Positions 10,257 through 63,742 of a stretch of 64,000 nucleotides of DNA are shown here, one piece after another (within the stretch, counting starts at the first letter, position 1; each line of letters opens with the position of its first letter). Location: positions 930,001-994,000 of the forward strand of contig SFZH01000008.1 in assembly GCA_021234535.1 (NCBI GenBank). The letters run 5' to 3'. The DNA is from Stichopus chloronotus. Its lineage: Eukaryota > Echinodermata > Holothuroidea > Aspidochirotida > Stichopodidae. Under the pieces are notes generated by a model that was not told the origin of the DNA, made no database searches, and saw nothing but the letters and a program-made list of their open reading frames with translations. A program made the position numbers and the translations under genes.

Positions 10257-10269
10257 ATGATGATATGGG
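10257..10269 (+). CDS. Constant exon 1: start codon and first residues of the NPL domain
   Basis: ATGATGATATGGG is followed by a perfect donor GTGAGT (10,270). It encodes M-M-I-W plus one base. Joined to exon 2 at 11,509 (GA) it reads M-M-I-W-G-M-T-L-Q-P-G, which matches the characteristic M-x-F-W-G-x-x-L-x-P-G start of NPL domains in FKBP39/46-type proteins. The exon is only 13 coding bases, so it was found by searching upstream for a W-G codon pair split by a phase-1 donor. Which of the two adjacent ATGs is used cannot be told. A different upstream start exon remains possible. Confidence 0.72.
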
Positions 10270-11508
10270 GTGAGTATTTTGGAATTGCTTTATGCAGCTA
10301 AAGTATTTGCACATACTGAGATAAAAAGTTGGCAATTCTATTCCAGTCTCTGTAGCTTGCACAGTATTCATTGGCCAGTCACTTGACTTCCATTTGCCAA
10401 GAATTACATTTCTATGTTGAAGATTTTTGTCTTCATGCACTAAATGCATTGATGATGGATGTATTTGATGATTTAAAGCAGGATGTGCTGTTTGAAAGAA
10501 AACAAATAGTCTTTATTGTTAAGTCTCCCTCATTCTCTGTCATTCGATACCAATCTGGAAAATAACATCTACAGTATGTTTCTTTCACTAGAAAATTCAT
10601 TCATTAGATTGTTAATTAAAGCAGAAAGAAGGGTGATCCATTTTTTTGGGGGCTAATAAGTTAGCAGAACCAGGCCCTGTAGTAAATGTGCGGCCTGTCT
10701 TGTGGGAAGACACCACAAGGAAAACGCATTGGGTCAGGAAATTAGGCTTTATTTGGACAAATAGACCACAGTGCGGTAGTTTGTACAGCTTTTTACAACT
10801 ATAGGAAATACAGCCAGTCTTTTGGTGCACTTTTGACATTGCAGGAATAACATCACATCCTGCTTAAATAAAAACTTACTGTACAGAATCATGAACAGTT
10901 CCCAGGGACAAAACAATAGTCATTAAGTGGATTCATCGAAACATCTTTCACTTTACCACACATTCCAGTCACATTTCATGGGAAAATTTTCAATGCTGAT
11001 TGCATAATGTCACTGTAATAGCCTTTATAGTTTTCTTTAATCTTTACAGGTAGGACAGTCTTTGAAATTACACATATTTGCATTAAGCAGGAGCAGGTTG
11101 ACCACCCTGTGATGCGATATGTACAGCGTAACTTAGGCCATGTATCAGTGTACACATAAACTGTACAATGCACCTCACCTCCTTTCACCCTAATGTTTAT
11201 GCATACATCTGTCCTTACTGTATGCAGTATCATAATGCTGGTGTGTTGCTACAGTATAGTCATAATAGAGGAACTTTCGTACAGCTAGGCTGTACAGAAG
11301 AATACTATAATACTGTAGAGGCCAATACAGTCATGATCTATATGGTAACAGCTCACTGTAAACTGAGCAAATGATGTTAACTCTCAAGCTAAATTTCTTA
11401 TCATCCAGTGATTTTAAGTTTTTGTGTGTCCCCCTCTGTGCATTATCACTCACTGACTTAAGTCTGAGTTTGAACATCACCTTCCGATTCTTCTCTATGC
11501 TCTTCTAG
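10270..11508 (+). other. Intron 1 of the main gene
   Basis: GTGAGT donor and a pyrimidine-rich acceptor TCTATGCTCTTCTAG. No additional exon or mobile element is recognised inside. Confidence 0.6.
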
Positions 11509-11607
11509 GAATGACGTTACAGCCTGGGTATGAATACACGGAGTTGGTAGATGAAGAAGTCCGTCTCTCCATGGCTTCTTTAGAATGTAGGCCCAGAAAG
11601 TCTCAGA
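11509..11607 (+). CDS. Constant exon 2: NPL domain, first strands
   Basis: 99 bases, phase 1 at both ends, acceptor CTTCTAG and donor GTGAGT. It encodes residues 5-37, GMTLQPGYEYTELVDEEVRL followed by SMASLECRPRKSQ. The W-G-x-x-L-x-P-G-x-x-Y and the S-M-A-S-L-E segment match the first two strands of the NPL fold seen in insect FKBP39/46 and the Fpr3/4 family. That family acts as histone chaperones through a pentameric beta-barrel. The match is by pattern recognition, not by search. Confidence 0.88.
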
Positions 11608-12140
11608 GTGAGTATCATTCTATCTCTGCCAGGAGACAAACCCTTTTTCTGTCTGAATAAATCTTCTGGCATTTGATGACTTCCTTTGAATTTTTGCATT
11701 AGTGCTTTTCTTTTTCTGTGACTTTTGTAGATTTTAATGAGTTGGCTTTTCTTTTGTTGTGAGGATTGTAGATTCTCATGAGTTACTTTACGAGAGAGAG
11801 ATTAAAAGGGACCTCTGACTTCAGACTGCGACAATTTTTGACTGAAAGACAAAAACATTTGAATGCAGTAACTATTGCAGTGATTGCATTCCTGGATGGT
11901 TTAAAATGAAATTTTAAAGATGTTTAAATCCAAATATTTGTACACTTGTGAATTCTGGCGTAATTTTAAAGATGTTTAAATCCAAATATTTGTACACTTG
12001 TGAATTCTGGCGTTAGATTAACAAGGATGAAATACTTGTTTGCTTTGGCTGACATTGTTAAACTCTCATGCCTTGTAGAATACATTTTAACTGCAGTATA
12101 GTTGTCAGTGTGCTCATTCAATATTTTCCTTTGCATTCAG
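11608..12140 (+). other. Intron 2, with a recent 52-bp tandem duplication
   Basis: A 52-bp segment beginning ATTTTAAAGATG at 11,911 is repeated at 11,963 with one difference at its end. Nothing else is noted. Confidence 0.75.
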
Positions 12141-12296
12141 ATGGATCATCAATTGTGCTGTCATCTCATGTAGTGCTGAGAACGTCCAGAGGTGAATTCC
12201 TTCTTTGCACGTTAGAGAAGGGTCCGACACCTCAACAGAACCTTGACCTGGTGCTACAGCCGAGGGAAAAAGTTACCTTCAGTGTAGAGGGAACAG
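12141..12296 (+). CDS. Constant exon 3: NPL domain core
   Basis: 156 bases, phase 1 at both ends; acceptor TTTGCATTCAG, donor GTATAG. It encodes residues 38-89 plus one base. Key segments are SSHVVLRTSRGEFLLCTLEK (residues 45-64) and NLDLVLQPREKVTFSVEGTG (71-90). The F-L-L-C-T-L-x-K-G, L-D-L and K-V-T-F pattern is diagnostic of the NPL domain of FKBP39/46-like proteins. No FK506-binding isomerase domain follows; zinc-finger or BEN exons take that position. Confidence 0.9.
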
Positions 12297-12465
12297 GTAT
12301 AGTGGATCTTCTCATTCTCATTGCCTAGCAAGTTGGCTTTCAGCCAGTTTGATGCATTTATTTCCTCTTTTGAAGAATAACCCCACAGAAGAGTGTTCAC
12401 ACTTTGGACTGCCTGTCCTCGTTGAATTGCTGGTATCTAAATTGCATTCTACTTTTATTTCAAAG

Positions 12466-12606
12466 GTATTGTACATTTAATGGGATACACGTCAGAGAGT
12501 CCAGATGAGCAACAGCCAGAGGATGAACACATTGAGAGTTTACCTCCAGAGCTTGAAGCACCACCATCTCTCCCTGAAGAAGATGCCCCCCTGCCAGAGG
12601 AACATG
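12466..12606 (+). CDS. Constant exon 4: end of NPL domain and acidic tract
   Basis: 141 bases, phase 1 at both ends; acceptor TTTCAAAG, donor GTATTA. It begins GIVHLMGYTSES (residues 90-101), the last NPL strand (V-H-L-x-G-Y). It then becomes strongly acidic and proline-rich (PDEQQPEDEHIESLPPELEA, residues 102-121, and on to residue 136). Acidic tracts just after the barrel are usual in nucleoplasmin-family histone chaperones and help bind basic histones. The same role is inferred here. Confidence 0.88.
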
Positions 12607-14747
12607 GTATTATTGATTAAGAGAAAGTTTGATAGATGCAGCTGTAACCCCCAAGTTCACATTTGATAGGTCGATTATGACGGGTGTGGCTATAAATTGA
12701 AGAATAGGTGCATGCTTTGTTTCAATGAAAAATAATAACCATTACAATCATGGTGGTGTTTTTGTGTGTGCGTATAAGTGTCTTTGATGCCTTGCTTGTT
12801 TAACAAAGTGTCTCAGTGCAAGCTTTGACTGATCTCAAGTTGTGTTCTATATTTAGTTAAAGATCCCTAGTGTGCTTGGTGGCAAACTCATCTGAAGTCA
12901 GCAGAGGTCAACCCGTGGAAACCTTGTAAACACAAAATTGCCAAGAGTGCAAGCTAAAATCAATGATCTCATGTGGAATTTTGATGATGAAGCACATTAA
13001 GCGCAAGAATACCGTTATGTCTTGTGAATGTCTACGGTCATTTGACGTGTACAGATTGTAAACTGTGACAAATTTGTAACTGCAGTATTGTAAGATTTCA
13101 CGGTTGGACTAATCTCATATTACATATAGTATGAACTATGTTAAACCCCAAAAGAGGACAAGATTTATGCTAGTTTTGGAGGTCAAAATTTATTTAAGGT
13201 TAACAGCAGTCAAAATGTGAAAACTCTCGTAAATACAGTATATCTTAAAAAGGCAAATTTGAACTTATATACTGTATATGTTGATCAACTGCAATGAGTA
13301 TTACAAGCTATTTGCTTTTTGGTTGGTGATTTGATGTCCACATCAACAGTGGTGAAACACAATACCCATAATGTTTTCCACATTTTTCAAAAGAAAGGAG
13401 GTTGGCCCCCTTAAAGCCTTTGTGCCATGTAGGGTGGAGTTTGAAGGGGACTTTCAAACTGACCTCTAGAATTTTTCAATAACTTAGATGCTGAATGATG
13501 CAAAATTGTACCACTTGGAGACAATTCACTGTATTTTATACATATATATATATAGCCAATTGTCAACTTTTTTGTAGCTGAGAGGAGCTTTTGCAGGGGG
13601 GGGGGGGTGGAATTCTCTTTATGGGGACACTTTCTGTTTCAGGGTAGGGGTGGTATTTATCACTCAGGCTGCACCCCCTTAAAGAGCGCTTCCATGGAGA
13701 ACACAGAGCGTCTCAAGAAAGGAACCCTGAACATACAGTATGCCCTATTTCATGTTGTACTTGAAGGTTCTGAGAAAGATTTGTTGAAAGTCATGGATCT
13801 TGTTAGAAGTCTTATTTCATAGATTGGCTCTTTATATGATGCATTTAATTGTGACTTGGTCATCTCCTTTTGAAAACAAGCATAAAGATTGATTTTTGCT
13901 TTAATTTTACATTTCTTTGGGAAGGGGAGCTTGGACAGACCTCATATATGTTAGTGTACTGCTTACCATATAGCCAATAAATTGATGAATTACTGTTAGC
14001 AGCTACTGTAGGTTGTATTGTCAAAGTTACAGTGCATTCAATTGTGGTAACATCAGTGGCTCATTAAGCAAAAGACATCTGGCTGCATGTACAGTACAAT
14101 CACATAGTGAGTAGGATAGCTTAGGTAACTGAAATTAAGTAAACGATTGGTTGTATGCTGTTATCTGCTTAGAAGAGAGACGCTTTTCCCCAACCTGGGC
14201 AAGGCATTTGTTGGGATGTTGGATGAGAGCTGCAAGCTTCGGTTGTTGATAAGGGTAGGCTTCCACATGAAATTCAAGTGCTCAGTTAATCTGTATTAGG
14301 AAAATTCAGGGAGAGCAAGTCAAGATGCCAAGTACAGTTTTCATTTGCTCACTGTGAAGGACAAAGTATGGAAAATGAATAAATATTGAGACTGCAGCAA
14401 TGCTGGGTTGCTTGTATTTGATTCTGCATCCCTACCCTTGCTGAATCAATGAGCACAATATATCAGTGGCACAAATGAAGCCATCTGTATAAAATGCCAC
14501 CTGGTCTCAAATCAACTGCTCAGACTTTAATCACTTGATCCTATTGTGCATTCATTACCTTTCTTGCTGTGAAACCTCATCACACTACATATCTGTCAAT
14601 ATTTCTTAATGGAAATCTTTTAGGAGTTTGAATCAGTTTCCCTCAGAGGACACATTAAGTAAACTGTTCTCTTGCTCCCACTTACTCCTACCCATTCCTA
14701 AATATATTCTTTATCATTTCTTTGCTGGTCTCTCTTTTGTGTCTCAG
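12607..14747 (+). other. Intron 4 with diverged tandem-repeat copies
   Basis: Between about 12,810 and 13,260, and again near 13,920, diverged versions of the 140-150-bp repeat at 9.3 kb are recognisable (GATCTCA, GGTCAAC, GTGAAAACTCTCGTAAAT). A short TA run (13,538-13,553) and a G run (13,597-13,607) follow. No exon is recognised. Confidence 0.5.
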
Positions 14748-14927
14748 AGGAGGAGAGCATAGTTGTTAAGAATGAGCAGGAGTCAGTGGTGATTCCAATC
14801 CTGGAAGAGGCTCTCGAGGACATGGACCAAATGGCCAAAAACGAAGCAATGGAAGCATCGGAAGTCCCGGTATCCACGCCAGCAGTCAACGTACAAACAC
14901 CAATACATGCACAATCTCAAATGCAAG
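14748..14927 (+). CDS. Constant exon 5: acidic linker with a SUMO-type motif
   Basis: 180 bases, phase 1 at both ends; acceptor TTGTGTCTCAG, donor GTAAAT. It encodes residues 137-196 plus one base. It starts EEESIVVKNEQESVVIPILE, giving an acidic stretch and V-K-N-E, which fits the SUMO-acceptor consensus (hydrophobic-K-x-E, Lys 144). It continues with a Met/Ala-rich amphipathic segment (EALEDMDQMAKNEAMEA) and a Thr/Pro/Gln-rich end. No named domain is recognised. The clean splice sites, phase and acidic composition make it a confident part of the constant region. Confidence 0.82.
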
Positions 14928-15978
14928 GTAAATCATTCGTTGAATTCTTTATTATCAGTTAAATCATTTTCCCCAGAAATCAGAGGGAGAATGGCACAGG
15001 ATACCAAAAAATCTCAACTTTAAGTCATAGCAAGAGCTATGCATATAAGTTGGAAAAGTGGAAGAGGGGGCGAAAAAAAAGATGAAATCTCCCAAAATTG
15101 TAACAAGAATTAATGAAGGGAGGTATAAAAAGAACAAAATGAGAACAAGCTAAATAAATTCATAACTGGACCAAGTGGACACACCTATAAGAGCAAGGAA
15201 ATGGTGTCAAGAAGATGAAGCAATTACAAGAATGAATGAAATTATCACAAGAAGGAAAATGAAATTTTATCAAGAGCAGTATGGAAATTGTAGCAAAAAC
15301 AAGGTGAATAAAATTATTACAGGAACAATAAAAGTAACTGTAACAAAAACAGTATGATAGAAATGATAAGTGCAAGATGGAAATTATTACAATGGCAACG
15401 TGAAGGAAATCATTACAAAGAAGTAGAATGAATGTATTACAAAGCAAGATAATGGAAGTTATAACAAGAACAAAACTACAGAAATCATAACAAGAACAAG
15501 ATGATGGAAATCACAACAAGAACAAGATGGTGGAAATGATAACAACAAGATGGTGGAAAGCATATAAGAACAAGATGGTCGAAATCGTAAGGAGAACAAG
15601 ATGGTGGAAATGATTACAGGAACAAGAAGTGTCATAACTGGAGCAAGATATTTCTTGCATTTACAGAAGAATTATTCATTCAAGTACAAGCTTAACGTTT
15701 TTGTACAAGGTGCGATATTGAAACAATAAACAGCGAAAGAAATTGAAAGTTATCCTAATGATACCAAAGTATTGTCTAAATGTAAGGTATGGCCTAAAAC
15801 TTTCAAAAACAAGATTGGTGATATAAGCAAGGAAGTAGGTGAATGAAACAAGTGAACAAAATAGGTGAATGAAATTGTTGGTGGAATGTAATGATATAAA
15901 ATATGTTGTGAGTAAATTAACACAAGTACTATTAGTGAAGTACTTATGCAGTTCCTTCTTTTTTTGTTGTCTCACTAG
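14928..15978 (+). other. Intron 5 with a degenerate minisatellite
   Basis: Between about 15,170 and 15,660 a degenerate unit of about 28-32 bp (AACAAGATGGTGGAAAT and variants such as ACAAGAACAAGATG) recurs many times, best preserved at 15,470-15,630. No exon is recognised. Confidence 0.6.
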
Positions 15979-16083
15979 GAAATGTTCTCCCTCCAGAGAC
16001 AGAGGAGGAGTACCCCTACCCAGATATGAGTGATGAAGGCTGGATGCAAACGCCTGAACCAACTCGCCAACAGCAACAACCAG
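15979..16083 (+). CDS. Constant exon 6: Pro/Glu/Gln-rich linker
   Basis: 105 bases, phase 1 at both ends; acceptor TTGTCTCACTAG, donor GTACCT. It encodes residues 197-231 plus one base, beginning GNVLPPETEEEYPYPDMSDE and ending WMQTPEPTRQQQQP. Low-complexity acidic and glutamine-rich sequence suggests a disordered spacer between the NPL barrel and the DNA-binding end. Assignment rests on splice-site quality, matching phase and composition. Confidence 0.78.
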
Positions 16084-17033
16084 GTACCTTTCCTGCATGC
16101 CTTAGTACAAAATACAAGTCTAAGGATAATGTTTTAAGGAATTCAATCAATATTTGTTTCCTATTTGCTGAAAAGGTGACCTTCTCATCTTTTCTTTTGA
16201 AAGTTGGATTGTATCTCAAATGAAACTAATTCAAAAAGAAAGTATTTAATGCAACATCTTTTTTAAAGAGTATTCTTGACAGATTCACATAGCAAAGACA
16301 TGCATGTTGCTCTGTATCAAGGCTACATGCCTTAGTAGTGGTGTTGTGTCTGTGAGAGTGAAGTCAAAATTACCAATGTCTTGGTTTTAGATCTGCTGGT
16401 ACCTTACAAAGTCAGCTAAGATATTCAGAATATTCTATGGTAACTTAATGATCAGGTTGATTGACTTAATGAATGTAACTGCAGTTGTTCAATCAAACAT
16501 GCACAGCTCCTTAAAATCTGTTTCATGAAGACTGAGAATTTCATCAAGACCACATGTTATGAAAGTCAGGTGGCATTTCATAGAAAGTTAACCTCCCTTT
16601 ACCACATCACCTTGATCGACGTGCATCTTTTGTTCTGATGCCTCTGCTACGGGCTGTTGCTGAATGAATTGAGATTGTGGAAGTAACATGTCAGAGCAAT
16701 CATTACTGTTAATTCTCCTTTTGTCTATGCTTAAAAACAATTTGTTGGTGCCTTTCCAGTTTGTGAAAAAATAGATATCAGATGATTTAGTCTCAGTAGA
16801 TACTCACCAATGCAATAAAGAGTGTTTGGATGTGTCTTTCTTGAAACCACATGCACGTTTAATTGTATTTTACAGAATTGAAAGTTATTCATTTTGGTTA
16901 TTCATTTTCCATTTTGTCATTCCATTTGAATTTCTCTCCCTCTCCTATGAAGATGGTGCCCCCTCTAAAACTGATACCAACACATGTAATTGACCACTCT
17001 ATCAGTTACCATGTTTTTTTAACTTCCTTTTAG
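16084..17033 (+). other. Intron 6, with a possible microexon
   Basis: Ordinary intron sequence apart from the 33-base candidate exon listed separately at 16,953-16,985. Confidence 0.5.
16953..16985 (+). CDS. Candidate 33-base alternative microexon
   Basis: A pyrimidine-rich tract (TTTCTCTCCCTCTCC) precedes TATGAAG and then 33 bases reading D-G-A-P-S-K-T-D-T-N-T plus one base, followed by GTAATT. It is phase 1 at both ends like all constant exons and has linker-like composition. Against it: the acceptor is AAG rather than CAG/TAG, the donor context is weak, and it lies only 48 bases before exon 7. If used it adds 11 residues. Confidence 0.35.
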
Positions 17034-17174
17034 ATCCTGGACCAAGGATAGACCCTTCATTCAATCAGGGTAGAGTAGCACAAGGAGCTAATATGCCATC
17101 AACAAGTTATTCACAGTCCAGAGGACAAGCAGCTGGTGAGAGCAGTCACATTGCATCCTCATCAGCCTCAACTG
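17034..17174 (+). CDS. Constant exon 7: Ser/Ala/Gln-rich linker, splice hub to the cassettes
   Basis: 141 bases, phase 1 at both ends; acceptor CTTCCTTTTAG, donor ACTG|GTAGGT. It encodes residues 232-278, DPGPRIDPSFNQGRVAQGAN at first and ending SSHIASSSAST, plus one base G. This single G is completed by GT at the start of each zinc-finger cassette exon. It is the last recognisable constant exon, so its donor is the probable common donor for all alternative 3' ends. Confidence 0.8.
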
Positions 17175-25059: not shown

Positions 25060-25598
25060 GTCCATCTCATTCTAGAACACAATGGTATGGGGAAGCAGAA
25101 GGTGGGACCCATCGCGGTGTTGGGACCCATCATGGTGGTTATGTCTCTGCCCATAGGTATGATCAAACCGGCTATGGAGATAGGGAAAGGGCCTCACAGG
25201 TTCAGGAGAGGGCTGCTTCAGTGCGGAAGGAGCACCGCCTCGAGAGAAAAGCACCTTACGGAGGTGGGAACGTACGTGGCAAGAAAAACCAAACAGAGTT
25301 AACGAAGCGTCTGCCATCTGATCCCGGTGTTGTGATGATGTTCAAGTGCCAGTTTTGTGGTCGGCTGTTTGGGAGGAAGGCCAACTGTGTGAAACATGAG
25401 AGGACTCATACAGGGGAGAAACCGTTCACCTGCCAGTACTGCCACAAGACTTTTGCATCAGACAGTGGCAAATCCCTCCATGAGCGCCTGCACACGGGCG
25501 AAAAACCGTTTGTGTGCCAGGTCTGCGGGAAAGCGTTCGCAGACAGGAGTAACCACCGGAAGCACGAAAACATGCACAGGAATACACCAAAGTTGTAA
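25060..25598 (+). CDS. Cassette 1: alternative 3' exon with three C2H2 zinc fingers
   Basis: Acceptor CTTTTATAG then GT, phase 1, giving Gly-Pro-Ser-His from exon 7. The linker is long (about 93 residues), rich in Gly, His and Tyr at first (EGGTHRGVGTHHGGY) and then basic (RKEHRLERKAPYGGG). Three C-X2-C-X12-H-X3-H fingers follow at 25,341-25,409, 25,425-25,493 and 25,509-25,577, joined by canonical TGEKP linkers, then RNTPKL and TAA. It is the most divergent cassette and the closest to the constant exons, so it may be nearest the ancestral 3' end. Fingers bind DNA in the nucleus; the target is unknown. Confidence 0.88.
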
Positions 25599-28382: not shown

Positions 28383-28385
28383 TAT

Positions 28386-29247
28386 CCTAAACATCCATCC
28401 TAACATTCAAATTTGTCAGAAGATTCCAGCACTTGTATGACAGTACTATCTGTTAACCAGACTGCTGTTTAAACATAAAGTACATGTAACTTATCTTAAT
28501 ATTCATAAATTTCAGTGGAAGGCATTGTAGCCTTCCCTTTTGACTGTACAGTATGTCCAATAGATATCCTCTCTGTACCATTTAAAGTTACTTCTTACTT
28601 TCATGTTCATTAATATCTATTAAAGACTGTACATGCTGTAAGTGAAAATGAACAAAGCTCACATGAAAGTTTTATCCTTTAGTTTTGCTATCGTTCTCCT
28701 AATGTTGTGTTTGTTTTTATCTGCTATAACGAGATAATTGTTCTTGAATTCCCATGAAGAGAGAGGGCGGAGTTGATAACGATACAGTATGTTCTTAATG
28801 GTCTTTGCAAAGGTTCTTAACTGACAGTAAACCAGCAAATCATATGATAAATATGCAACAACCCTGTGAAAGCAACCTGTGAGTCACATGATGAATATGC
28901 AGTGAACCTGTGAATCATGAATATGCAGTACACCTGTGAATTGTGAATTATGTGATCATAGGTATGCAGTAAACTTGTGAATTAGAGATGATGAATATGG
29001 AGTAAGCTGTGAATTATGTGGTAAATATATGTTCTTCTCCCCTAAGTCAAACTTAAACTCGGTCCAACCCCCAGCCCTGAGTCATCAAATATTGTGAAAA
29101 AGCAAGTCGCCACAACTTGTAGGAACAAAAGATGCCATGTCTCATTTCAACAAAGAAGGGTTTCAGATAAAAAAAAAAAACAGAAACTCAGCATTAAGTA
29201 CAAGCCAGAGGTTTTGTCACATACTCATTTCATCCTTGGTTTTGTAG
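28386..29247 (+). other. Spacer with a degenerate minisatellite
   Basis: From about 28,860 to 29,024 a degenerate unit of about 33 bp (ATGATGAATATGCAGT, CCTGTGAAT) recurs four to five times. The rest is the presumed intron upstream of cassette 2. Confidence 0.6.
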
Positions 29248-29723
29248 GTGTTGTTAAGAGAACCTTAGCCACGGGAACAGTGAGTAGACACACGTCATTT
29301 GCCATGAGCAGTTTGAATGTCACTGATGGACAGACCCTATCCACACCTACATCAAGGAAACATCTGCCGTCAAAGTCGAGAGCCACTTCATTGGTTATGA
29401 GGAACAGCAGAAATGTCAGGATTAAGCAAACCCCCAAATCTAATGGAACCTCTTACCAGTGCCAGTACTGCAACAGGTACTTCCGTCTGAAGCACAACCT
29501 TTGCATCCATGAACGGCGGCACACCGGAGAGAAGCCGTACAAATGTCTTTTCTGCCCAAAAGCCTTTGCGTCGAGTGGGGAGCAGAAGCTACATGAACGT
29601 TTTCACACTGGAGAAAAACCATACAAGTGCAATATTTGCGGGAAAGCGTTCGCAGACAGTAGCAACTGCAGGAAACATCAAAATGTACATAAAAGAGGAC
29701 CTATGAGAAGCTTTGACCAGTAG
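29248..29723 (+). CDS. Cassette 2: alternative 3' exon with three C2H2 zinc fingers
   Basis: Acceptor GGTTTTGTAG then GT, phase 1, giving G-V-V-K-R-T. The Ser/Thr-rich basic linker includes SLVMRNSRNVRIKQTPKSN. Fingers lie at 29,454-29,522, 29,538-29,606 and 29,622-29,690 with TGEKP linkers; the tail is KRGPMRSFDQ then TAG. Finger 1 is the only finger in the array with Leu at helix position 4. Finger 3 (CGKAFADSSNCRKH) is almost the same as in cassette 4 and in the pseudo-cassette at 35 kb. The frame stays open upstream of the acceptor, but that part has no similarity to the other cassettes. An AATAAA at 30,171 could serve as poly(A) signal. Confidence 0.88.
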
Positions 29724-30396: not shown

Positions 30397-30881
30397 GTAT
30401 GTTGTACCCAAGTCAAGGAATGTTTCAATCACCAGTACATGCTCGTGGCTCTCGGAAGGGAAGCCATCGGGACTTAGCTAGTCTGCTGCCAAGAAGCGCT
30501 GTCAAATCTAATAACAGAACTGGTAATGAGAAGGCGACACGTCGCAAGAGAATACAAACTCATCCGCCTGACACAACCTCACCTTCGTCTAGTAACTCTG
30601 CTGCCGGGAGGACTAAAACCTACTTCTTGTGTCAGTTCTGCGACCGTCCCTTTAGCCTCCGGAGTAACTGCAAAGTCCACGAGCGCAGACACACTGGAGA
30701 GCGGCCCTTCAAATGTCAGTTTTGTCCGAAGTTGTTTGTCAGCGGAAGTGAGCAGAAGGCACATGAAAATCTTCACACGGGAGCAAAGCCTTACAAGTGT
30801 AGATACTGTGACATGTGCTTTGCCAGCTCTTCACATAGATGCCAGCATGAAACAAAACATAAAAGTGAACATTTGACTTGA
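30397..30881 (+). CDS. Cassette 3: alternative 3' exon with three C2H2 zinc fingers
   Basis: Acceptor TTGCTTCATAG then GTATGT, phase 1, giving G-M-L-Y-P-S-Q-G. The linker carries basic NLS-like KATRRKRIQ and a Ser/Thr/Pro stretch TTSPSSSNSAAGRTK. Fingers lie at 30,624-30,692, 30,708-30,776 and 30,792-30,860, with linkers TGERP and the non-canonical TGAKP; stop TGA. AATAAA (30,882-30,887) directly follows the stop but is probably too close to be the only signal. DNA-contact residues of finger 3 are S, S, H, Q. It belongs to a family with cassettes 4, 5 and 6. Confidence 0.92.
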
Positions 30882-36065: not shown

Positions 36066-36562
36066 GTATGTTGTACAGTCAAGGAATGTATCAATCACCA
36101 GTACATGCTCGTGGCTCTCGGAAGGGAAGCCATCGGGACTTAGCTAGTCTGCTGCCAAGAAGCACTGTCAAATCTAATAACAGAACTGGTAATGAGAAGG
36201 CGACACGTCGCAAGAGAATACAAACTCACCCGCCTGACACAACCTCACCTTCGTCTAGTAACTCTGCTGCCGGGAGGACTAAAACGTACTTCTTGTGTCA
36301 GTTCTGCGACCGTCCCTTTAGTGTGAGGAGTAACTGCAAAGTCCACGAGCGCAGACATACGGGAGAGCGACCCTTTAAATGCCAGTTTTGTCCAAAGTTG
36401 TTCGTCACTGAAAGCGAGCAAAAAGCCCACGAAAATGTCCACACTGGAGAAAAACCATACAAGTGCAATGTTTGCGGGAAAGCGTTCGCTGACAGCAGCA
36501 ACCGCAGGAAACATCAGAATGTACATAAAAGAGGACCTTTGAGAAGCTTTGACCAGAAGTAG
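36066..36562 (+). CDS. Cassette 4: chimeric alternative 3' exon with three C2H2 zinc fingers
   Basis: Acceptor TTGCTTCATAG then GTATGT, phase 1. Linker and finger 1 (36,290-36,358) are nearly those of cassette 3. Finger 2 (36,374-36,442, TESEQKAHENVH) is that of cassette 5. Finger 3 (36,458-36,526, CGKAFADSSNRRKH), the tail RGPLRSFDQK and the 3' flank match cassette 2 and the pseudo-cassette. Both linkers are canonical (TGERP, TGEKP). The mosaic points to unequal exchange or gene conversion near the second linker (about 36,435-36,460). The frame is intact, so a hybrid specificity has been kept. Confidence 0.92.
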
Positions 36563-37261: not shown

Positions 37262-37746
37262 GTATGTTGTACCCAAGTCAAGGAATGTTTCAATCACCAG
37301 TTCGTGCTCGTGGCTCTCAGAAGGGAAGTTGTCGGGACTTAGCTAGTCTGCTGCTGAGAAGCTCTGTCAAATCTAAGCACAGAGCTGGTAATGACAAGGT
37401 GACTCGTGGCAAGAGAATACAAACTCACCCGCCTGATACAACCTCACCTTCTTCTAGTAATTCTGCTGCCGGGAGGACTAAAACATACTTCTTATGTCAG
37501 TTCTGTGACCGTCCCTTTAGCCTCCGGAGTAACTGCAAAGTCCACGAGCGCAGACACACTGGAGAGCGGCCCTTCAAATGTCAGTATTGTCCAAAGTTGT
37601 TTGTCACGGAAAGCGAGCAGAAGGCACACGAAAATGTCCACACTGGAGAGAAGCCTTATAAGTGTAGATACTGTGATCAGTGCTTTGGCAGCTCTTCACA
37701 TAGATCCCATCATGAAACAAAACACAGAAGTAAACCTTTGATGTAA
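37262..37746 (+). CDS. Cassette 5: alternative 3' exon with three C2H2 zinc fingers
   Basis: Acceptor TTGCTTTATAG then GTATGT, phase 1, G-M-L-Y-P-S-Q-G start. The basic linker has VTRGKRIQTH and the same TTSPSSSNSAAGRTK stretch as cassettes 3 and 4. Fingers lie at 37,489-37,557, 37,573-37,641 and 37,657-37,725; linkers TGERP and TGEKP; tail RSKPLM then TAA. Finger 3 (CDQCFGSSSHRSHH) differs from cassette 3 at helix position 6 (H instead of Q). AATAAA at 37,890-37,895 is a plausible poly(A) signal. Confidence 0.92.
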
Positions 37747-40216: not shown

Positions 40217-40701
40217 GTGTGTCCTATCCTCGTCAAGGGCTATTATCTTCTGCAGAACTGGTACGTAATTCCCGGGGAAGCTGCCGAAAGTTTAGCCCTG
40301 TACCGTCTGTGGACCCTGTCAAATCTAAGAATAAAATCAGTGATAGAAAGTTAAGTCACAGCAGGAAAATGCAAATTGGTGCACCTGAAACAAAAACATC
40401 TCAGACAAAGAACCCTGCGACCAGAAGAACTAAGACCTTCTTTTTGTGTCAGTTCTGCGACCGTCCCTTCAGCTCCAGGGGCAACTGTAAGGTCCATGAG
40501 CGCAGGCACACCGGAGAGCGGCCATTCAAGTGCCGGTACTGTCCAAAGCTGTTTACAAGCGGCAGTGAAAGGAAACCCCATGAGAACCTTCACACCGGTG
40601 CCAAGCCTTTCAAGTGTAGGTATTGTGAAAAGTGTTTCGCCAGTGGATCACACAGGTGTCAGCATGAGGCCAGATACCACAAAGGGGAACTTTCAGGGTA
40701 G
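40217..40701 (+). CDS. Cassette 6: alternative 3' exon with three C2H2 zinc fingers
   Basis: Acceptor ATGCTTGCTTCATAG then GT, phase 1, G-V-S-Y-P-R-Q-G. The linker is basic (KNKISDRKLSHSRKMQ) but diverged from cassettes 3-5. Fingers lie at 40,441-40,509, 40,525-40,593 and 40,609-40,680; linkers TGERP and TGAKP. Finger 3 has X4 rather than X3 between the histidines (H-E-A-R-Y-H), which still fits C2H2. Finger 1 (FSSRGNCKVH) and finger 2 (TSGSERKPH, a Pro at helix position 6) are distinctive. Stop TAG. Confidence 0.9.
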
Positions 40702-43312: not shown

Positions 43313-43806
43313 GTGTGTCTTACCCCAGCCACCGATATCTACCGTCCACAGAACAACCCGTGGGAAGCAACCAATACCTCTCTGGCCTGTTATCATTAAG
43401 AGCAACCTCTGTCAGATCAACATCTGTCAGATCTAAGAAAAAATTGGGTAGCGACAAGGTGCATCTTCGTAAGAAGATGCAAATTAGTTCAACAGATGAA
43501 ATCGGTCCAACCGCTAATAACCCCAGTGGAAGGTCTAAGACATTCTTTTTGTGTCGTTATTGTGACCGTCCCTTCAACCTCCGAAGTAACTGTAAAGTCC
43601 ATGAGCGCAGGCACACCGGAGAGAGGCCCTTTAAGTGCAGCATCTGTCCAAAGTTTTTCGTTAGTGGAAGTGAAAGGAAAGCCCACGAGAACCTCCACAC
43701 GGGGAACAGACCGTACAAGTGCAGATACTGTGATAAAAGTTTTGCTAGCACTGGTACCAGATGTCACCACGAGAAAAAACATATCCGTGATTACAGCAAA
43801 GCCTAG
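43313..43806 (+). CDS. Cassette 7: alternative 3' exon with three C2H2 zinc fingers
   Basis: Acceptor TATCCTTGCTTCATAG then GT, phase 1, G-V-S-Y-P-S-H-R-Y-L. The linker has a short internal duplication (TSVRSTSVRSKKK) and basic HLRKKMQ. Fingers lie at 43,546-43,614, 43,630-43,698 and 43,714-43,782 with linkers TGERP and TGNRP; tail IRDYSKA then TAG. It forms a close pair with cassette 8. Finger 3 helix residues are S, G, T, H. AATAAA at 44,133-44,138 is a possible poly(A) signal. Confidence 0.92.
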
Positions 43807-46212: not shown

Positions 46213-46688
46213 GTTTGTCCTACCCCAGCCAGGGATATCTACCACCCACAGAACAACCTGGGGGAAGCCGCTGGTATCTCTCTGGTTCTTCAACATTAGG
46301 GACCTCTGTCAGATCTAAGAAAAAAATGGGTGGCGACAAGATGAATGTTCATAAGAAGATGCAAATTAATTCATCAGATGAAATCGGTTCAGCTGCTGAT
46401 AACCCCAGTGGAAGGTCTAAGACATTCTTTTTGTGTCGTTATTGTGACCGTCCCTTCAACCTCCGAAGTAACTGTAAAGTCCACGAGCGCAGGCACACCG
46501 GAGAGCGACCCTTTAAGTGCTGCATCTGTCCAAAGTTTTTCGTTAGTGGAAGTGAAAGGAAAGCCCACGAGAACCTCCACACGGGGAACAGACCTTACAA
46601 GTGCAGATACTGTGAAAAAAGTTTTGCTAGCACGGGGAACAGGTGCCACCATGAAAAGAAACACATGCGTGAACAGCACAAGCCCTAG
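46213..46688 (+). CDS. Cassette 8: alternative 3' exon with three C2H2 zinc fingers
   Basis: Acceptor TATCCTTGCTTCATAG then GT, phase 1, G-L-S-Y-P-S-Q-G-Y-L. Basic linker SKKKMGGDKMNVHKKMQ. Fingers lie at 46,428-46,496, 46,512-46,580 and 46,596-46,664; linkers TGERP and TGNRP; tail MREQHKP then TAG. Fingers 1 and 2 match cassette 7 except for one residue outside the helix (CSICPK to CCICPK). Finger 3 differs at helix position 3 (T to N). A recent duplicate of cassette 7 with a change at a predicted base-contact residue. Confidence 0.92.
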
Positions 46689-49044: not shown

Positions 49045-49574
49045 CTCTTGGTCCATTAACGGAGAGAGTGGAAAATATTGAGAGGAAGATGATTAAGTTG
49101 ACGGATGTGTTGACGAAACTCCACTCGAAGCCAGCTAAGACTCTCAAGGCGAGCACCCCGGTGTACGTTAACAATAAGGATGGATCTGTTCAGATCGGTC
49201 ATGAGAATAGGACAATTAATTTAAGAAAAACGGAGGTGGAGTCTGCATTCCATCTCAGCCTGACTGGTAAAGACTTTGTACTAAAAATGATGTCCTTGGT
49301 GTTTTCCTCTGAGGAACTGGCAGCATCTAATTTTTCCGGAGGGAGAACTGTTTGTGGTGCTGTCACTAAACATAAGAATTCCTTAAAGAATAATTGGAAG
49401 TTTAAGGCGATACTGTCGAGCGCTGAGAGCAACTTCCCTGGTTGTACAGATGGACACTTCTTTAAGATTTTGAAAGATGCTGTAAATAACAAGTGTAGAA
49501 AGCTGGACAGCAAGATTGAAACAGGTACAGCAACAGGCAGGGAAGTAATTAAGGAAGGGGGAGGGGTACTGTGA
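49045..49574 (+). CDS. BEN-domain cassette exon (alternative 3' or internal exon)
   Basis: Acceptor TTGAATTTTATCAG then CT, phase 1, giving A-L-G-P-L-T-E from exon 7. A short helix follows (ERVENIERKMIKLTDVLTKL, possible coiled coil), then DGSVQIGHENRTINLRKTEV and the BEN domain proper: LTGKDFVLKMMSLVFSSEEL, AASNFSGG, NSLKNNWKFKAILSSAESNF and FFKILKDAVNNKCRKLD. The order (V-x-I-G start, helix with V-F-x-x-E-E-L, S-N-x-x-G, I-x-x-K-C-R end) fits BEN, a DNA-binding and chromatin-repressor domain. The frame runs to TGA at 49,572-49,574. A phase-1 donor (ACAG|GTACAG at 49,525) could instead join it to later exons; the residues after it (TATGREVIKEGGGVL) look non-domain. Confidence 0.85.
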
Positions 49575-53557: not shown

Positions 53558-54036
53558 GTTCACCCTATCACATTGAAAGGACAGTACCACCCACAGTAAT
53601 GACAGAAGGCTATGAGGGGAGTAACATCAACACTGCTAAGTTGCTGACAAGGGCATCACTCAAAAGTAGGGTCCGAACCGCAGGAGCCAAGTCAAATCGT
53701 CGCAAGAGGCTAGAAGTTTTTGCACCTGATGCAAAGCAAGCAGTGTCCAACGGTCCCGCCTTGAAAGCTAAACCTATGTTTTTGTGCCGATTTTGCAACC
53801 ATCCCTTCACCTGCAGGAGCAACTGTGAAATCCACGAGCGCAGGCACACGGGTGAAAGGCCCTACAAGTGCCAGTTCTGCCCAAAGCAGTTTGTCTCACT
53901 TGGCGAAAGAAAGACCCACGAAAATTTCCACACCGGTGCCAAACCATACAGCTGCAGATTCTGCGACAAGTGCTTTGCCAGCACTGGAAGTCGAGGCCAA
54001 CATGAACTGAAACACAGACGCGAATATTCTTCCTAA
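53558..54036 (+). CDS. Cassette 9: alternative 3' exon with three C2H2 zinc fingers
   Basis: Acceptor GTCCTTGCTTCATAG then GT, phase 1, G-S-P-Y-H-I-E-R. It starts the second family (cassettes 9-12), whose linkers share EGYEGSNINTAK and a basic SNRRKRLEV motif. Fingers lie at 53,779-53,847, 53,863-53,931 and 53,947-54,015; linkers TGERP and TGAKP; tail RREYSS then TAA. Finger 1 helix residues are C, S, N, I; finger 3 S, G, S, Q. An in-frame ATG at 53,599 could in principle start a short protein lacking the NPL half, but no promoter is evident. Confidence 0.92.
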
Positions 54037-55479: not shown

Positions 55480-55946
55480 GTTCATCCTATCACAATGAAG
55501 GAACAGTACAACCTGCAGTAATGACAGGAGGCTATGAGGGGAGTAACATCAACACTGCTAAATTGGGGTCAAGGGAATCACTCAAAAGTAGGGTTCGAAC
55601 TGCACGAGCCAAGTCAAATCGTCGCAAGAGGCTAGAAGTTTTTGCACCTGATGCAAAGCAAGCAGTGTCCAACGGTCCCCTTTTGAAAGCTAAAACTATG
55701 TTTTTGTGCCGATTTTGCAACCACCCCTTCAGCTGCAGAAGCCACTGTGAAACCCATGAGCGCAGACACACGGGTGAAAGGCCCTACAAATGCCAGTTCT
55801 GCCCAAAGCAGTTTGTCTCACGCGGCGAAAGAAGGACCCACGAAAATTACCACACCGGTGCCAAACCATACAGCTGCAGATTCTGCAACAGGTCTTTTGC
55901 TAGCACCGGGGGCCGAGTCAAACATGAACACTACAGGCACAAATAG
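55480..55946 (+). CDS. Cassette 10: alternative 3' exon with three C2H2 zinc fingers
   Basis: Acceptor GTCCTTGCTTCATAG then GT, phase 1, G-S-S-Y-H-N-E-G. The linker is nearly that of cassette 9 (SNRRKRLEVFAPDAKQAVSN). Fingers lie at 55,701-55,769, 55,785-55,853 and 55,869-55,940; linkers TGERP and TGAKP; the tail is a single Lys, then TAG. Finger 1 (FSCRSHCETH) and finger 3 (FASTGGRVKH, with X4 between the histidines) differ from cassette 9 at predicted contact residues. The very short tail sets it apart. Confidence 0.92.
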
Positions 55947-58900: not shown

Positions 58901-59258
58901 GTACATTGTAAGTAAGGTACAGTACATACTTTAAAAAGTTTAATAATTTCTTCTGCAGAACACAACAAAAAGCAGTGTACTGGTTTGGAAACATTGATCT
59001 CACAGTGTGACACAGAAGGGAGCTCGATTGAATGGAGTTGGAATCATCACAGTTTTGTCATTAATCCATGTTTCCATCTTTCAACTTTAGTACGTGTGCT
59101 CTGATATCGAAAAACAAAACTATACAGCATCGTCACCAATTTCTCTCAGGCTCATTTCATCCCTTTCAGGGTAGTCTGTACTTTTAGGTAAACAAAATAC
59201 AACTTGAATATTTCAAATCTGTGAGGGTCACTTGAGTGCTTTTGTCCTTGCTTCATAG
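55947..59258 (+). other. Spacer between cassettes 10 and 11 with repeated blocks
   Basis: A GACTCGAGTCA-rich interspersed repeat end lies at about 56,410-56,625. A block of about 350 bp with GATCACTGTATGTTATC and GAGAACTTACTGCAATTACA (about 57,800-58,150) recurs, diverged, at 58,600-58,920 and 61,130-61,460. No gene is recognised. Confidence 0.6.
56410..56625. repeat. GACTCGAGTCA-rich interspersed repeat fragment
   Basis: Multiple direct and inverted GACTCGAGTCA / TGACTCGAGTC variants end at GTCATCACAGCACTGG. Such palindrome-rich ends are typical of DNA-transposon termini. No matching opposite end is identified. Confidence 0.5.
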
Positions 59259-59737
59259 GTTCACCCTATCACATTGAAAGGACAGCACAACCCACAGTAA
59301 TGGCAGAAGGCTCTGAGGGAAGTTACATCAACACTGCTAGGTTGCGGTCAAGGGAATCGGTCAAAACTAGGGTTAGAACCGCAGTAGTTAAATTGAATCA
59401 TCGCAAGACACTTCAGTCTGTCCCATCCAGTGTGAGACCCTTTATGGACAATGGTCCAGCTGGGAAAGCTAAAACTATGTATTTGTGCCGATTTTGCGAC
59501 CGTCCCTTCAGTTTTAGAAGCAACTGCAAAGTCCATGAGCGCAGACACACGGGTGAAAGGCCCTTCAAGTGCCAGTTCTGCCCAAAGAAGTTTGTCTCTT
59601 CGGGAGAAAGAGCAACCCACGAAAATGTTCACACTGGTGCCATATCATACAAATGTAGGTGCTGTGAAAAGGTTTTTACCTGTGCAGGAAGCAGAAGTAG
59701 ACATGAATCAAAACACAGGCATGGACAGTATTCTTAA
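59259..59737 (+). CDS. Cassette 11: alternative 3' exon with three C2H2 zinc fingers
   Basis: Acceptor GTCCTTGCTTCATAG then GT, phase 1, G-S-P-Y-H-I-E-R. Linker EGSEGSYINTARLRSRESVK, then basic KLNHRKTLQS. Fingers lie at 59,480-59,548, 59,564-59,632 and 59,648-59,716. The second linker is TGAIS, which lacks the Lys-Pro of the consensus and may loosen finger 3 docking. Finger 3 (CRCCEKVFTCAGSRSRH) has contact residues C, G, S, R. Stop TAA. AATAAA at 59,883-59,888, about 145 bases after the stop, is the best-placed poly(A) signal in the array. Confidence 0.92.
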
Positions 59738-62700
59738 GGAGTCTGGATATTGCAGCACATACATGCACTATATCCACAAACAGAGTTGATAGGTAAGTTA
59801 GAGTGAACCGAATGGAACTTCAAAGCAAAGTTTTCTGCACATGAAGAACTAAAATTGTACAGAAAGAATGTAAAATGAATTCAATAAACATGCTTAGTCA
59901 TCAGATATTGGACTGAGAGCAGGGGAGAACTTTTTACTTTGTTATTATGTCATGAATGTAAGATTGTCAGAATTTAGTGTTCAGTTTAAAATATTTAAAA
60001 TAAGAAAACTCTCGTCATTAGCAGGCAACAACTCTTGGGCTGAATCTGCTGGTGAGCTAAACAGTACCAACATATATTCCACTAACTCTGAATCTGTTGT
60101 TGTACAGGGCTATCAAGAGACAACATTGTTTGGTTCCTCAGTCAAAGTTCGAACACGGCTGTATCAACAGGCAATATTGCTGTACCCGAATGGTGCGTGT
60201 TGTAAAACTGTGTCAACAGGCAACATATCACTGTCCCTAAATCTGCAATCTTGGACAAAATACCTTGGGACACCCCGCTCCCTTGTTCAATGTTGGCTAC
60301 GGGATTTCTGTTCAATTTGTACATTCACATCAATAGCGCAACATTGGAAAGGGGTGCGGGTTTTCATGTTATCTTCTCACCTAAAATTCAGTATTATATT
60401 TGCAACATACGGCAAAGTGTCCCAACCATTTTTGTCCAAGGATTTAGTCCAGTTGTAAAAGACTGCTTCAGCAGGCAAATATACTGTACATGGCACCATC
60501 ACTGAATCTAGCATTTCACGGGAATGTCAAGAGGCAATGGCTCTGTCCCAGGATGCAGTATTATATGAAAGTTTTGTATTGAACAGATGCTATCACTTTT
60601 CCGGAATCCAGGTTGGAACAAGACCGCCATGCAATATCACTATCCCTGAAAGTAGTGTACAAGACAATTACCAGACCTCAACACTACCTCAAAATATGCA
60701 CAGTGGTTGTACAACTGAGGATGGTGTACCTTTTGTGACAAACATTCCTCTTCTGTTAAAGGGAAATAGGGCATTTAGAATATACCAATATGGCATGTAA
60801 AGAAAATAGCTTTAATCATTGTTAAACCATGCAGTGTTACCGATAAATATCTGCAAAAGCTTCATCTCCTCAAAAAGTTATGCATGTGATGAGTAACGGA
60901 AGATGCATCATTTGAATTTTGAAAAGTTTGGGTGAACAAATTAGTGTTGAGCCACAAATAACTGAATTTCTGTCTGTGAGGAGCTTATTTCTTGAAGAGA
61001 AGGCTACTGTCCTTCCTCATTTTGAATAATCTATCCTTCTGCATCCACAAACATTGGTTTTAAAAATATGGATGTTTTCTGTAAAACAAACGCCCTATTT
61101 CCCTTTAAGCTTTTCTTTTGTTTTCTTTCTCTGTGATCACTGTAAGTTATCGTTTTAGGTTTATTAAGCCTTCTCAGCAGTGACGTACAGTACTAACAGT
61201 ATAGACTGTGCAAGTGTACAACCAAAATATGATTCAAGTTTTGACTGCATTAAATAATTGTTGCAGCAAACAAATTTGCTTCAGCATTAAGAAGTGGTAA
61301 AAAAGGTGATAGAAACCAATTTAATATGTTTTTGAGAACTTATTACTAATAAGACTGCTCCAAGATCAGTGCATATGATGAGTCAGTATAACCAGGGTTC
61401 TCATAAGCGATGGCTCTGTGCCTGCATTTTACCATTCACAACAATCTAGTCTTGACTTTGAAAATATCCACTAAGGCCACCATAGCAAGTGGTACATGGG
61501 TGATGTAGTGCTCCACAAGTTGATGTATATATTATTTGGCCCGTTTGATATATCTGTGTTTCCTTCTTAAGTTCGTACTGAGAGCAGTGGTTTTGTACCC
61601 TTGGTTGTCTGAACACACCACTAATCAGGAGACTTTAATGCTGACGAAAACTGTCTATCTTTGAAATTTTGTGGAAGTATTAAGATTATCAGGACCCCCT
61701 GATCCTCATCACTATAGCCTATCTCTTTTCATATACAGTACTTGTTTTAATCCACTCCCAAAGCCAACAGAACAGTAAACAAGAGGTCAACAGAAATAGT
61801 TCATACCATTGTTATTATGCCAATGCAAAGAGGATGTTCCTCCTGCAGATAGTACAAACTTTATGGCAACAGTGTCTATAACTTGATGATACCCATTTTA
61901 AGTTCAACAGAACAAAACTGAAAGTGATTTACAGGGTTCTAAACATCTTGTGACACAGTAGTGTTAGGAATAACTGGAGTCAGGTACATGATGCACACTG
62001 ACTCTATATGACTGCTAACAATCCATGTTCGATGCCTTCTTTCAAATTCAATTGGTCAGGTGTAACACCATGTCAGAAAATTGGCGTTGGGGGGGGGGGG
62101 GGGATAAGGGTATAACATCTAAAGGACACCCTTGAAGATCAAAAGTATGAAATACAAGGTGGAAAACATGCCACCAGCTGACAGAAGTGTGTATAACATT
62201 TTGACTGTGGAAATGTCATTTTGGAATGCTGATGCTGCTGTTTCTCTTTGGCTAAAATGCTTAGCGAGTAAGCCAACGTCAAGTGTTAAATGACCTGGAG
62301 CTTGGGGCCACATCTCTTGATTTCTGTGTTGACTTGATCTAAACTTTTAGCCCTTTTTTACAACAGAAATATCATTTTGTGAGAGTTGCAGCCAGGCAAA
62401 ATGGAGTAGTGGTTGCTTAAAGAGAAAAAAAGTAGTGGCTAACGTGTGGACCCTGGAAAGAAAAGAAGGCCCATGAGTTGAGTTTTTTTTGTTTGTTGAG
62501 TCTCTCCCACACTCTTATCAGGTGATTTGAAGAAAGTCATTGTGAAATGGCCCCTGGAGGCCACTGCAGCAGCAACCTCACGAAATTTGAATAACAAACC
62601 AGTAGCAGCATGGTGGCAGTAAAGCACTGGGGCAAATTCTTTGTCTGATTTAAACTAAATACTCTGTCTTACAAAATGTATTGTGCACCCCTCCACTCCT

Positions 62701-63254
62701 ACTATCCACTACAAAAATGAAAGCTGAGCAATGTGGCATGGCCATGGCTGTAATTTTGAAAAACAATACTACAGAGTCATGGCCAATTGGTTAAATCTTG
62801 AAGGCTGGATGCATCCAGTATCAGTTCATTTTATCCACTTGTAACGAGTTTTTGAAAGCTCGCTGATCATGCAAGGTTGACATGAATACTGCACTTTCAA
62901 GTTGATATGGTGCTCTCATCAGCATATTAAAGCTGCTATGCATACAGTACAGTAGTTCAGTGAGGGAAGGTCAGGAAGGACATTGTCCTCATAAAAAGAC
63001 TACAAAAGAGCCAACAACCCGAAATCCTGAACACACAGCCAAATCAGCGCAGACTGTTCAATTTATCCACAGCTATCTGTGAGACGTCAAGTAAGCTGGC
63101 ACTCTCCAATGTACAGTGCATATATACAGTACCTAACCCCCCTACCTCCACATGCCCTCCTGCATTGCCTTGCTTTTGGCTGATAAGATGGTGTGGTCTT
63201 TAAAAATACCAAATCTGTGAGGGTCACTTGATTGCTTTTGTCCTTGCTTCATAG
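59738..63254 (+). other. Spacer between cassettes 11 and 12
   Basis: It contains single minisatellite-like units (60,158-60,245), the third copy of the 350-bp block (61,130-61,460) and a run of 15 G at 62,089-62,103. The last 40 bases repeat the conserved flank CTGTGAGGGTCACTTGATTG. No gene is recognised. Confidence 0.6.
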
Positions 63255-63742
63255 GTTCATCCTATCACAATGAAAGGACAGTACAACCCACAGTAATGAC
63301 AGAAGGCTATGTGGGGAGTAACATCAACACTGCTAAGTTGCTGACAAGGGCATCACTCAAAAATAGAACCCCAAGAACTAGAACCGGAAGAGCCAAGTCT
63401 AACCGTCGCAAGTCTCTGCAGTCTGTTCCATCTACTGCAAGGGTATCTGTGGACAATGGTCCAGCTGGGAAAGCTAAAATTATGTATTTGTGCCGATTCT
63501 GCAACCGTCCCTTCAGCACCAGAAGCAGCTGCGAAATCCACGAGCGCAGACACACGGGTGAAAGGCCCTTCAAGTGCCATTTCTGCCCAAAGACGTTTGT
63601 CTGTTCGGGAGAAAGGAAGAACCATGAAAATTCTCACACTGGTGCCATATCATACAAATGTAGGTACTGTGAAAAGGTTTTCGCTGGCACGGGAGGCAGA
63701 AGTAACCATGAATCAAAACACAGGCATGAACATTATTCTTAA
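63255..63742 (+). CDS. Cassette 12: alternative 3' exon with three C2H2 zinc fingers
   Basis: Acceptor GTCCTTGCTTCATAG then GT, phase 1, G-S-S-Y-H-N-E-R. Linker with NRTPRTRTGRAKSNRRKSLQ. Fingers lie at 63,485-63,553, 63,569-63,637 and 63,653-63,721; linkers TGERP and TGAIS as in cassette 11; tail RHEHYS then TAA. Contact residues are T,S,S,I / C,G,E,N / G,G,G,N, the most diverged set of the second family. Its 3' flank parallels that of cassette 11, and the final bases of the window repeat the GGCAAACTATT motif seen at 57.78 kb, so another unit may follow outside. Confidence 0.92.

Follow-up and report, generated by a model that had tools for sequence, protein, structure and literature searches.

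In the sea cucumber Stichopus chloronotus, the window analysed here is a stretch of 64,000 nucleotides (contig SFZH01000008.1, C23:930,001-994,000 of a 719-Mb genome; plain positions are on the window scale) that carries exons for a nucleoplasmin-like (NPL) domain with an acidic linker, followed by an array of exons that could serve as alternative DNA-binding ends. Twelve zinc-finger open reading frames (ORFs) and one BEN-like ORF lie downstream of these constant exons, all on the + strand; every one of them has a candidate acceptor in phase 1 and ends in a stop of its own. The array extends beyond 63,742, where an earlier note made from the letters of the window had placed its end: ten further finger exons (ZF13-ZF22) run from 66,374 to 108,736 on the window scale, which corresponds to C23:996,374-1,038,736. 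The full array comprises 22 C2H2 zinc-finger exons, or cassettes, and one BEN-like exon, and covers about 84 kb of one strand. Coordinates are collected in Table 1.

The constant half

The constant part consists of seven exons (10,257-17,174, + strand), all with canonical GT-AG borders; every junction is in phase 1, and the length of each exon after the first is divisible by 3. Once joined, they encode 278 residues, with the NPL domain at the N-terminus and the acidic linker behind it. The earlier note had read seven phase-1 exons with an NPL-like domain and an acidic linker here, and the profile search of this region that it proposed as a check gives a strong match, with Pfam NPL (PF17800) aligning to residues 3-98 over profile positions 1-93/94 at an E value of 4.8e-19. 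The linker (residues 99-278, 180 residues) holds 38 D/E against 6 K/R, and with only 24% charged residues it is acidic, although not densely charged. NPL is the sole Pfam find in the constant half, where no BTB domain was found, and Pfam reported no FKBP domain there or in the 5 of 23 cassettes scanned (ZF1, ZF2, ZF4, ZF12 and the BEN-like one). The closest solved structures by sequence in the PDB are FKBP43 (E 0.002) and the 39-kDa FK506-binding nuclear protein, FKBP39 (E 0.029). A short tandem duplication of ~52 bases is visible by eye at about 11908-12013, within the intron that separates constant exon 2 from constant exon 3.

The cassette array

Each finger cassette carries 3-5 tandem C2H2 fingers and, beyond the window as within it, terminates in a stop of its own. 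In a finger-pattern search of 184 kb on both strands, all 22 ORFs with at least three fingers were found on the + strand, and the rest of the matches were four single ones, two per strand, that are apparently spurious. The best acceptor of each finger ORF was scored on pyrimidines, AG spacing and a bonus for a following G, phase being ignored, and it fell in phase 1 in 22 of 22, including the ten beyond the window. The chance of phase 1 is ~1/3 per ORF, and because the cassettes are related, the 22 count as about eight independent groups by the tree. For ZF2 and ZF22, where the coding signal starts upstream of the chosen acceptor, the exon start is placed with less certainty. The common acceptor phase reported by the earlier note for thirteen downstream exons is thus borne out, with candidates on all 13 and a phase-blind result for the fingers, and to the stops that it noted in the twelve finger exons is added one in the BEN-like exon, a TGA at 49,572-49,574.

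A codon-usage scan of the 184 kb reported 26 segments, the top 22 of which are the finger exons, all on the + strand, and chance ORFs were rejected on this ground; 14 of the 22 were in the training set, and the 8 outside it are yet relatives of trained ones. The remaining four segments are two copies of one inverted-repeat ORF, a second ZF6 frame and the reverse strand of ZF16. The short constant exons went unreported by the scan though they were in the training set.

The ratio of nonsynonymous to synonymous substitution rates (dN/dS) is 0.22-0.55 in 10 of 11 cassette pairs, which overlap and are not independent; dS is saturated in the eleventh. Recent cassette pairs are under purifying selection overall, and a pseudogene array was rejected for them on these ratios. 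ZF4 is a mosaic of ZF3 and ZF2: compared window by window, it is 88-100% identical to ZF3 from 36,020 to ~36,366, identity is 78-82% to about 36,466, and over 36,456-36,555 it is 92-96% identical to ZF2. The sets of DNA-contact residues are all different among the 22 finger cassettes, and in two cassette groups variation is somewhat higher at the contact positions than elsewhere in the same finger segment (0.43 vs 0.35 and 0.38 vs 0.28; no significance test). An acceptor tract, CTTGCTTCATAG, stands just before the ZF3-ZF15 acceptors and is identical in 12 of 13, ZF5 being one base off; it could be a splicing element that they have in common or simply reflect their descent. The tract is identical even in pairs such as ZF6 and ZF10, whose proteins are no more than 42% alike.

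Joined sequences in relatives

With the constant half as query, seven proteins (P0001-P0007) were retrieved, the closest named relatives being those of Apostichopus japonicus and Holothuria leucospilota. P0001 matches the 278 constant residues at 97.5% identity and, exactly where exon 7 ends, passes into a cassette that has 97.6% identity to ZF7. Its contig of 1,488 bp, whose source label lgn we take to denote Logan assemblies of public reads, is too short for introns and was therefore read as complementary DNA. P0002 and P0003, from contigs 1,631 and up to 1,890 bases long, are identical to each other over 293 residues, a common half 53% identical to the constant half here, and then diverge into different cassettes. 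That of P0003 groups with ZF19 in the tree (support 95/87; 68.6% identity), which makes ZF19 older than the split of these species, and that of P0002 is nearest ZF2 over the fingers (64%) and unplaced in the tree. Such transcript-sized sequences, in which a constant half is joined to cassettes, support the interpretation put forward in the earlier note. The opposite outcome, in which the cassettes are driven by separate promoters and are at no time spliced to exon 7, is contradicted in the case of two of them; cassette-only transcripts were not searched for.

A similar arrangement is found in A. japonicus, where nine entries (P0010-P0018; isoforms X3, X5, X6, X7, X11, X13, X14, X16 and X20), clusters that represent 28 member sequences, all lie on one contig of 21,652,200 bases. 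They have at least 430 N-terminal residues in common and eight distinct finger ends, P0012 and P0018 carrying one and the same. NCBI isoforms are model-based, and these entries are therefore support and not proof. The constant halves of the A. japonicus and H. leucospilota NPL-finger proteins (P0004-P0007, P0010-P0018) are only ~32-45% identical overall to the one here, and the proteins are thus regarded as paralogues.

An alignment search for NPL-finger proteins, in which 7,994 candidates were scored, returned 19 proteins: 12 from A. japonicus or H. leucospilota (11 with finger domains, and P0009, a partial entry without fingers), the three finger-bearing contigs P0001-P0003, and four others, namely P0019 (clam), P0020 (fungus) and P0022, with NPL and FKBP, and P0021, with NPL. 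With just 7,994 candidates scored, the absence of such proteins outside sea cucumbers is not established. P0021 has an NPL, an acidic linker and, by eye, one C-terminal C2H2 finger, like plant HD2.

The BEN-like exon

The BEN identity of this exon is weakly supported. Its sole database relative found is H. leucospilota P0008 (68%), which carries the UniRef name BEN domain-containing protein. In a low-confidence structural model (mean pLDDT, the predicted local distance difference test score, of 45), the top three Foldseek rows are BANP BEN (E 0.21-0.36), and Bsg25A and insv BEN structures are among the first 12; no row is significant, and given the low confidence of the model the ranking is merely a hint. 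For the BEN module claimed by the earlier note, these rows and the name of P0008 are weak support, and Pfam gives no BEN match in the exon up to E 10. A linker exon before it, suggested by P0008, was sought by tblastn, which gave nothing convincing (best other match E 0.06, inside ZF1), and a possible phase-1 donor after 49,524 would allow the BEN-like exon to be used as an internal exon.

At a second locus, C7:32.06M, two BEN-like ORFs and one finger ORF lie behind the NPL exons on their strand. Among these, the finger ORF, the clean BEN-like ORF and the two frames around the other BEN-like match, which has an internal stop (E 0.009), all have their best acceptor in phase 1. With 28 other BEN-like places scattered in the genome and 25 NPL exons in 719 Mb, arithmetic gives an expectation of ~0.05 BEN-like neighbours within 100 kb, on the right strand, of an NPL exon; this locus would thus lend some independent support to BEN-like ends on NPL genes.

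Sister loci

The genome contains at least 25 NPL matches. Two genome searches, restricted to frames of up to 300 amino acids on NPL-bearing chromosomes, listed 68 cassette-like finger ORFs, and 57 of these listed matches have an NPL exon upstream on the same strand, at a distance of no more than 120 kb (35 of 46 when this locus, which holds 22, is excluded). Four other NPL loci hold several each; three of the four sister arrays are known from positions only. At C22:9.67M, the DNA of which was read, five finger ORFs stand on the NPL strand, and the pyrimidine-richest acceptor (17-18/20) is in phase 1 in each. One finger ORF lies on the opposite strand within 120 kb of an NPL exon, near C22:9.21M, and it is part of the neighbouring 9.41M array. 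C23:22.76M and C6:18.98M have one finger ORF each downstream, with acceptor candidates in more than one phase; no finger ORF was found in the 20 kb read downstream of C7:21.36M or in the first 10 kb read downstream of C22:9.41M. The 300-residue filter hides longer ends, such as an 11-finger ORF at C6:18.98M and a 350-residue frame behind C23:23.99M. Judged from its sequence, this genome holds a family of NPL-finger array loci, not one gene. On C23, two pairs of NPL-plus-finger places (22.758-22.786M and 23.093-23.121M) are repeated at a 335-kb offset, the product of either a recent segmental duplication or a duplicate in the assembly.

Proposed working and alternatives

The reading preferred here, with a probability of about 0.8, is that the locus is one transcription unit in which the NPL-linker exons are cis-spliced from the exon-7 donor to one of at least 22 alternative zinc-finger ends, and probably to the BEN-like one too. 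Transcription would begin before exon 1 and run through the array, and the single exon-7 donor would be spliced to one terminal exon. Since the acceptors are in phase 1 throughout, every choice of cassette would be in frame, and since constant exons and cassettes are all read from one strand, ordinary cis-splicing would suffice. The products would carry the same NPL head and each a different DNA-binding end, new ends being generated by tandem duplication and recombination of cassettes. By analogy with known NPL proteins, the constant half would be an oligomer of the histone-chaperone type, its head forming a ring-like assembly (a pentamer, or a tetramer) able to contact histones. The product could then act as a multivalent reader of DNA sequence that recruits or organises chromatin, with the fingers carried on the ring, and different ends might be mixed in one ring. 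We infer that every cassette is used in this species, and that the products bind DNA and play a role in chromatin. A bolder proposal, which we regard as doubtful, is that a family of array genes evolved in sea cucumbers whose NPL rings are built from monomers with different DNA-binding ends, the choice of cassettes in each cell setting the mixture of sites that one ring can bridge, as a combinatorial chromatin-bridging code. With 23 ends and five ring places, 80,730 compositions would be possible by arithmetic, and mixed-end rings, if true, would represent a code analogous to, and independent of, that of the insect BTB genes.

A number of points weigh against the single transcription unit and the working proposed for it. 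No transcript from this very genome was seen; the 97.5% identity of the constant half of P0001 indicates that it probably comes from a close relative. A joined counterpart is lacking for 21 of the 23 cassettes, ZF7 having one directly and ZF19 in a more distant relative, and as either the constant half or the BEN-like exon served as the query, finger-cassette transcripts without NPL would have escaped the searches. AATAAA occurs within 500 bases after the stop in 10 of 23 cassettes, where 5.9 are expected, and by 1,500 bases in 14, where 13.3 are expected; this enrichment is weak, and poly(A) signals were not used as proof of terminal exons. Fourteen of the 25 NPL places have no downstream ORF from the 68 listed. 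In the alignment with FKBP39, the NPL here retains the conserved aspartate of the NPL signature and has arginine at the conserved histidine (His-x-Ser being Arg-x-Ser), so that FKBP39-like contacts need not be kept; the histidine of the NPL signature is present in the paralogue P0005. Finally, P0008 is predicted without an NPL half, and the BEN-like exon falls below the threshold of the codon-usage scan although it was in the training set.

The latter two observations, together with the 28 related places elsewhere in the genome, are what would be expected if the BEN-like exon belonged to a separate gene or were an old insertion within the array. This is quite possible, if short of an even chance, given that the exon has a phase-1 acceptor, lies within the array on its strand, and has parallels at C7:32.06M. 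For the array as a whole, tandem clusters of finger genes are common, and an NPL gene might simply be followed by independent zinc-finger genes, occasional read-through producing the joined sequences; the weakly enriched poly(A) signals and the lack of a search for cassette-only transcripts leave room for this. It was nonetheless rejected as very improbable, because of the phase of the acceptors, the strand and the joined sequences in relatives: neither 22 of 22 best acceptors in phase 1, nor 57 of 68 listed finger ORFs behind same-strand NPL exons, nor the isoforms modelled by NCBI in A. japonicus would be expected of it.

Finger families of the KRAB and ZAD types are thought to diversify toward mobile elements, and the products of the locus could likewise be lineage-specific repressors whose fingers recognise such elements, rather than a developmental combinatorial factor. 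Cassettes that duplicate and recombine, as ZF4 illustrates, contact positions slightly more variable than others of the same finger segment, and several sister arrays would all fit this possibility, which is nevertheless considered unlikely: selection on the recent pairs is purifying overall, contact positions exceed the others by little, and ZF19 retains 68.6% identity in a relative in which that of the constant half is 53%. As regards the route to the products, they could be made in part by trans-splicing of separately started constant and variable pre-mRNAs, as lola isoforms are made by cis- and trans-splicing (PMC1947980). Here, not one of the 23 cassettes is on the strand opposite to the constant exons; cis-splicing is therefore enough, and a share for trans-splicing is improbable, although internal promoters were not looked for.

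Relation to known systems

Few known layouts draw as many different transcription factors from a single gene as that of Drosophila lola, which mod(mdg4) shares, and to our knowledge it is generally treated as an insect speciality. In lola, common BTB N-terminal exons are spliced to ~20 alternative C-terminal exons, most with zinc fingers, and the ends are joined in cis and in trans (PMC1947980). By its sequence, the locus described here resembles both genes in that common 5' exons would be joined to many alternative terminal exons with stops of their own, whereas the constant domain is NPL here and BTB there, and the phylum is a different one; unlike in lola, sister loci also carry arrays. The working principle would be the same as in lola and family membership is not, since no BTB domain was found. 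The separate evolution proposed by the earlier note is upheld on account of a different constant domain in a different phylum.

With respect to the NPL head, those of FKBP39 are pentamers, and FKBP39 binds histones through its NPL (PMC4414354), while a tetramer has been reported for NPL in another paper (PMC5225439). NPL proteins are described as carrying, after the NPL, a highly charged, mostly acidic unstructured stretch of >100 residues (PMC4414354), and the order of an N-terminal NPL and an acidic stretch is common to the NPL-FKBP proteins (FKBP39, Fpr4; PMC4414354) and to the constant half here. The former end in a C-terminal isomerase, in contrast to the zinc-finger or BEN-like ends of this locus. 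The plant HD2 proteins (HD-tuins) also combine an N-terminal NPL with a C-terminal C2H2 finger (PMC4414354); unlike them, this is an animal gene with 3-5 tandem fingers and alternative terminal exons. Three NPL arrangements are given in PMC4414354 (with an isomerase, with a plant zinc finger, and alone), and an NPL head with tandem animal zinc fingers lies outside these three. The same combination of NPL and C2H2 fingers is found in the uncharacterised A. japonicus and H. leucospilota proteins, including the A. japonicus set that is numbered to X20 on one constant half; these differ from the present gene as paralogues and are without a functional name. Among the open-access papers that turned up in literature searches, none, judged by its title and the opening of its abstract, describes such a gene; this scope leaves aside most preprints and subscription journals. 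To that extent the remark of the earlier note that none was known stands, but NCBI does model isoforms of the A. japonicus paralogue, as an uncharacterized protein.

A lola-type layout found in an echinoderm, at sister loci too and with another head that probably oligomerises, would point to a repeatable evolutionary solution, and what is required of the head could then be compared. Sea cucumbers are regeneration models, and isoform choice could therefore be followed in regrowing tissue.

Table 1. Constant exons and cassettes (window positions) and sister arrays
Feature	Position	Strand	Remark
Constant exon 1 (coding part, MMIWG)	10257..10269	+	P0001 has same start
Constant exon 2 (NPL)	11509..11607	+	GT-AG, phase 1
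Constant exon 3 (NPL core)	12141..12296	+	GT-AG, phase 1; Pfam
Constant exon 4 (NPL end, acidic linker)	12466..12606	+	GT-AG, phase 1
Constant exon 5 (linker)	14748..14927	+	GT-AG, phase 1
Constant exon 6 (linker)	15979..16083	+	GT-AG, phase 1
Constant exon 7 (linker; donor is proposed common donor for cassettes)	17034..17174	+	boundary matched in P0001
ZF1, 3 C2H2 fingers, own stop	25060..25598	+	best acceptor phase 1
ZF2, 3 fingers (exon start less certain)	29248..29723	+	best acceptor phase 1
ZF3, 3 fingers	30397..30881	+	best acceptor phase 1
ZF4, 3 fingers; mosaic, 5' ZF3-like, 3' ZF2-like	36066..36562	+	best acceptor phase 1
ZF5, 3 fingers	37262..37746	+	best acceptor phase 1
ZF6, 3 fingers	40217..40701	+	best acceptor phase 1
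ZF7, 3 fingers	43313..43806	+	97.6% identical cassette joined to constant half in P0001
ZF8, 3 fingers	46213..46688	+	best acceptor phase 1
BEN-like cassette, own stop	49045..49574	+	phase-1 acceptor; possible alternative donor after 49524
ZF9, 3 fingers	53558..54036	+	best acceptor phase 1
ZF10, 3 fingers	55480..55946	+	best acceptor phase 1
ZF11, 3 fingers	59259..59737	+	best acceptor phase 1
ZF12, 3 fingers; array runs on past window	63255..63742	+	best acceptor phase 1
Sister array	C22:9.67M		6 finger ORFs downstream of NPL, same strand
Sister array	C22:9.41M		12 finger ORFs downstream of NPL, same strand
Sister array	C22:9.21M		7 finger ORFs downstream of NPL, same strand
Sister array	C22:5.15M		4 finger ORFs downstream of NPL, same strand

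Neighbouring elements

At 803-2269 (+), two adjacent open frames are parted by one stop and display, by eye, a FADD motif; from their look they are presumably the reverse transcriptase of a non-LTR (long terminal repeat) element. Upstream of the window there are two copies of one 268-residue open frame, ~7 kb apart and oppositely oriented, at C23:917,289-918,092 (-) and C23:925,256-926,059 (+).

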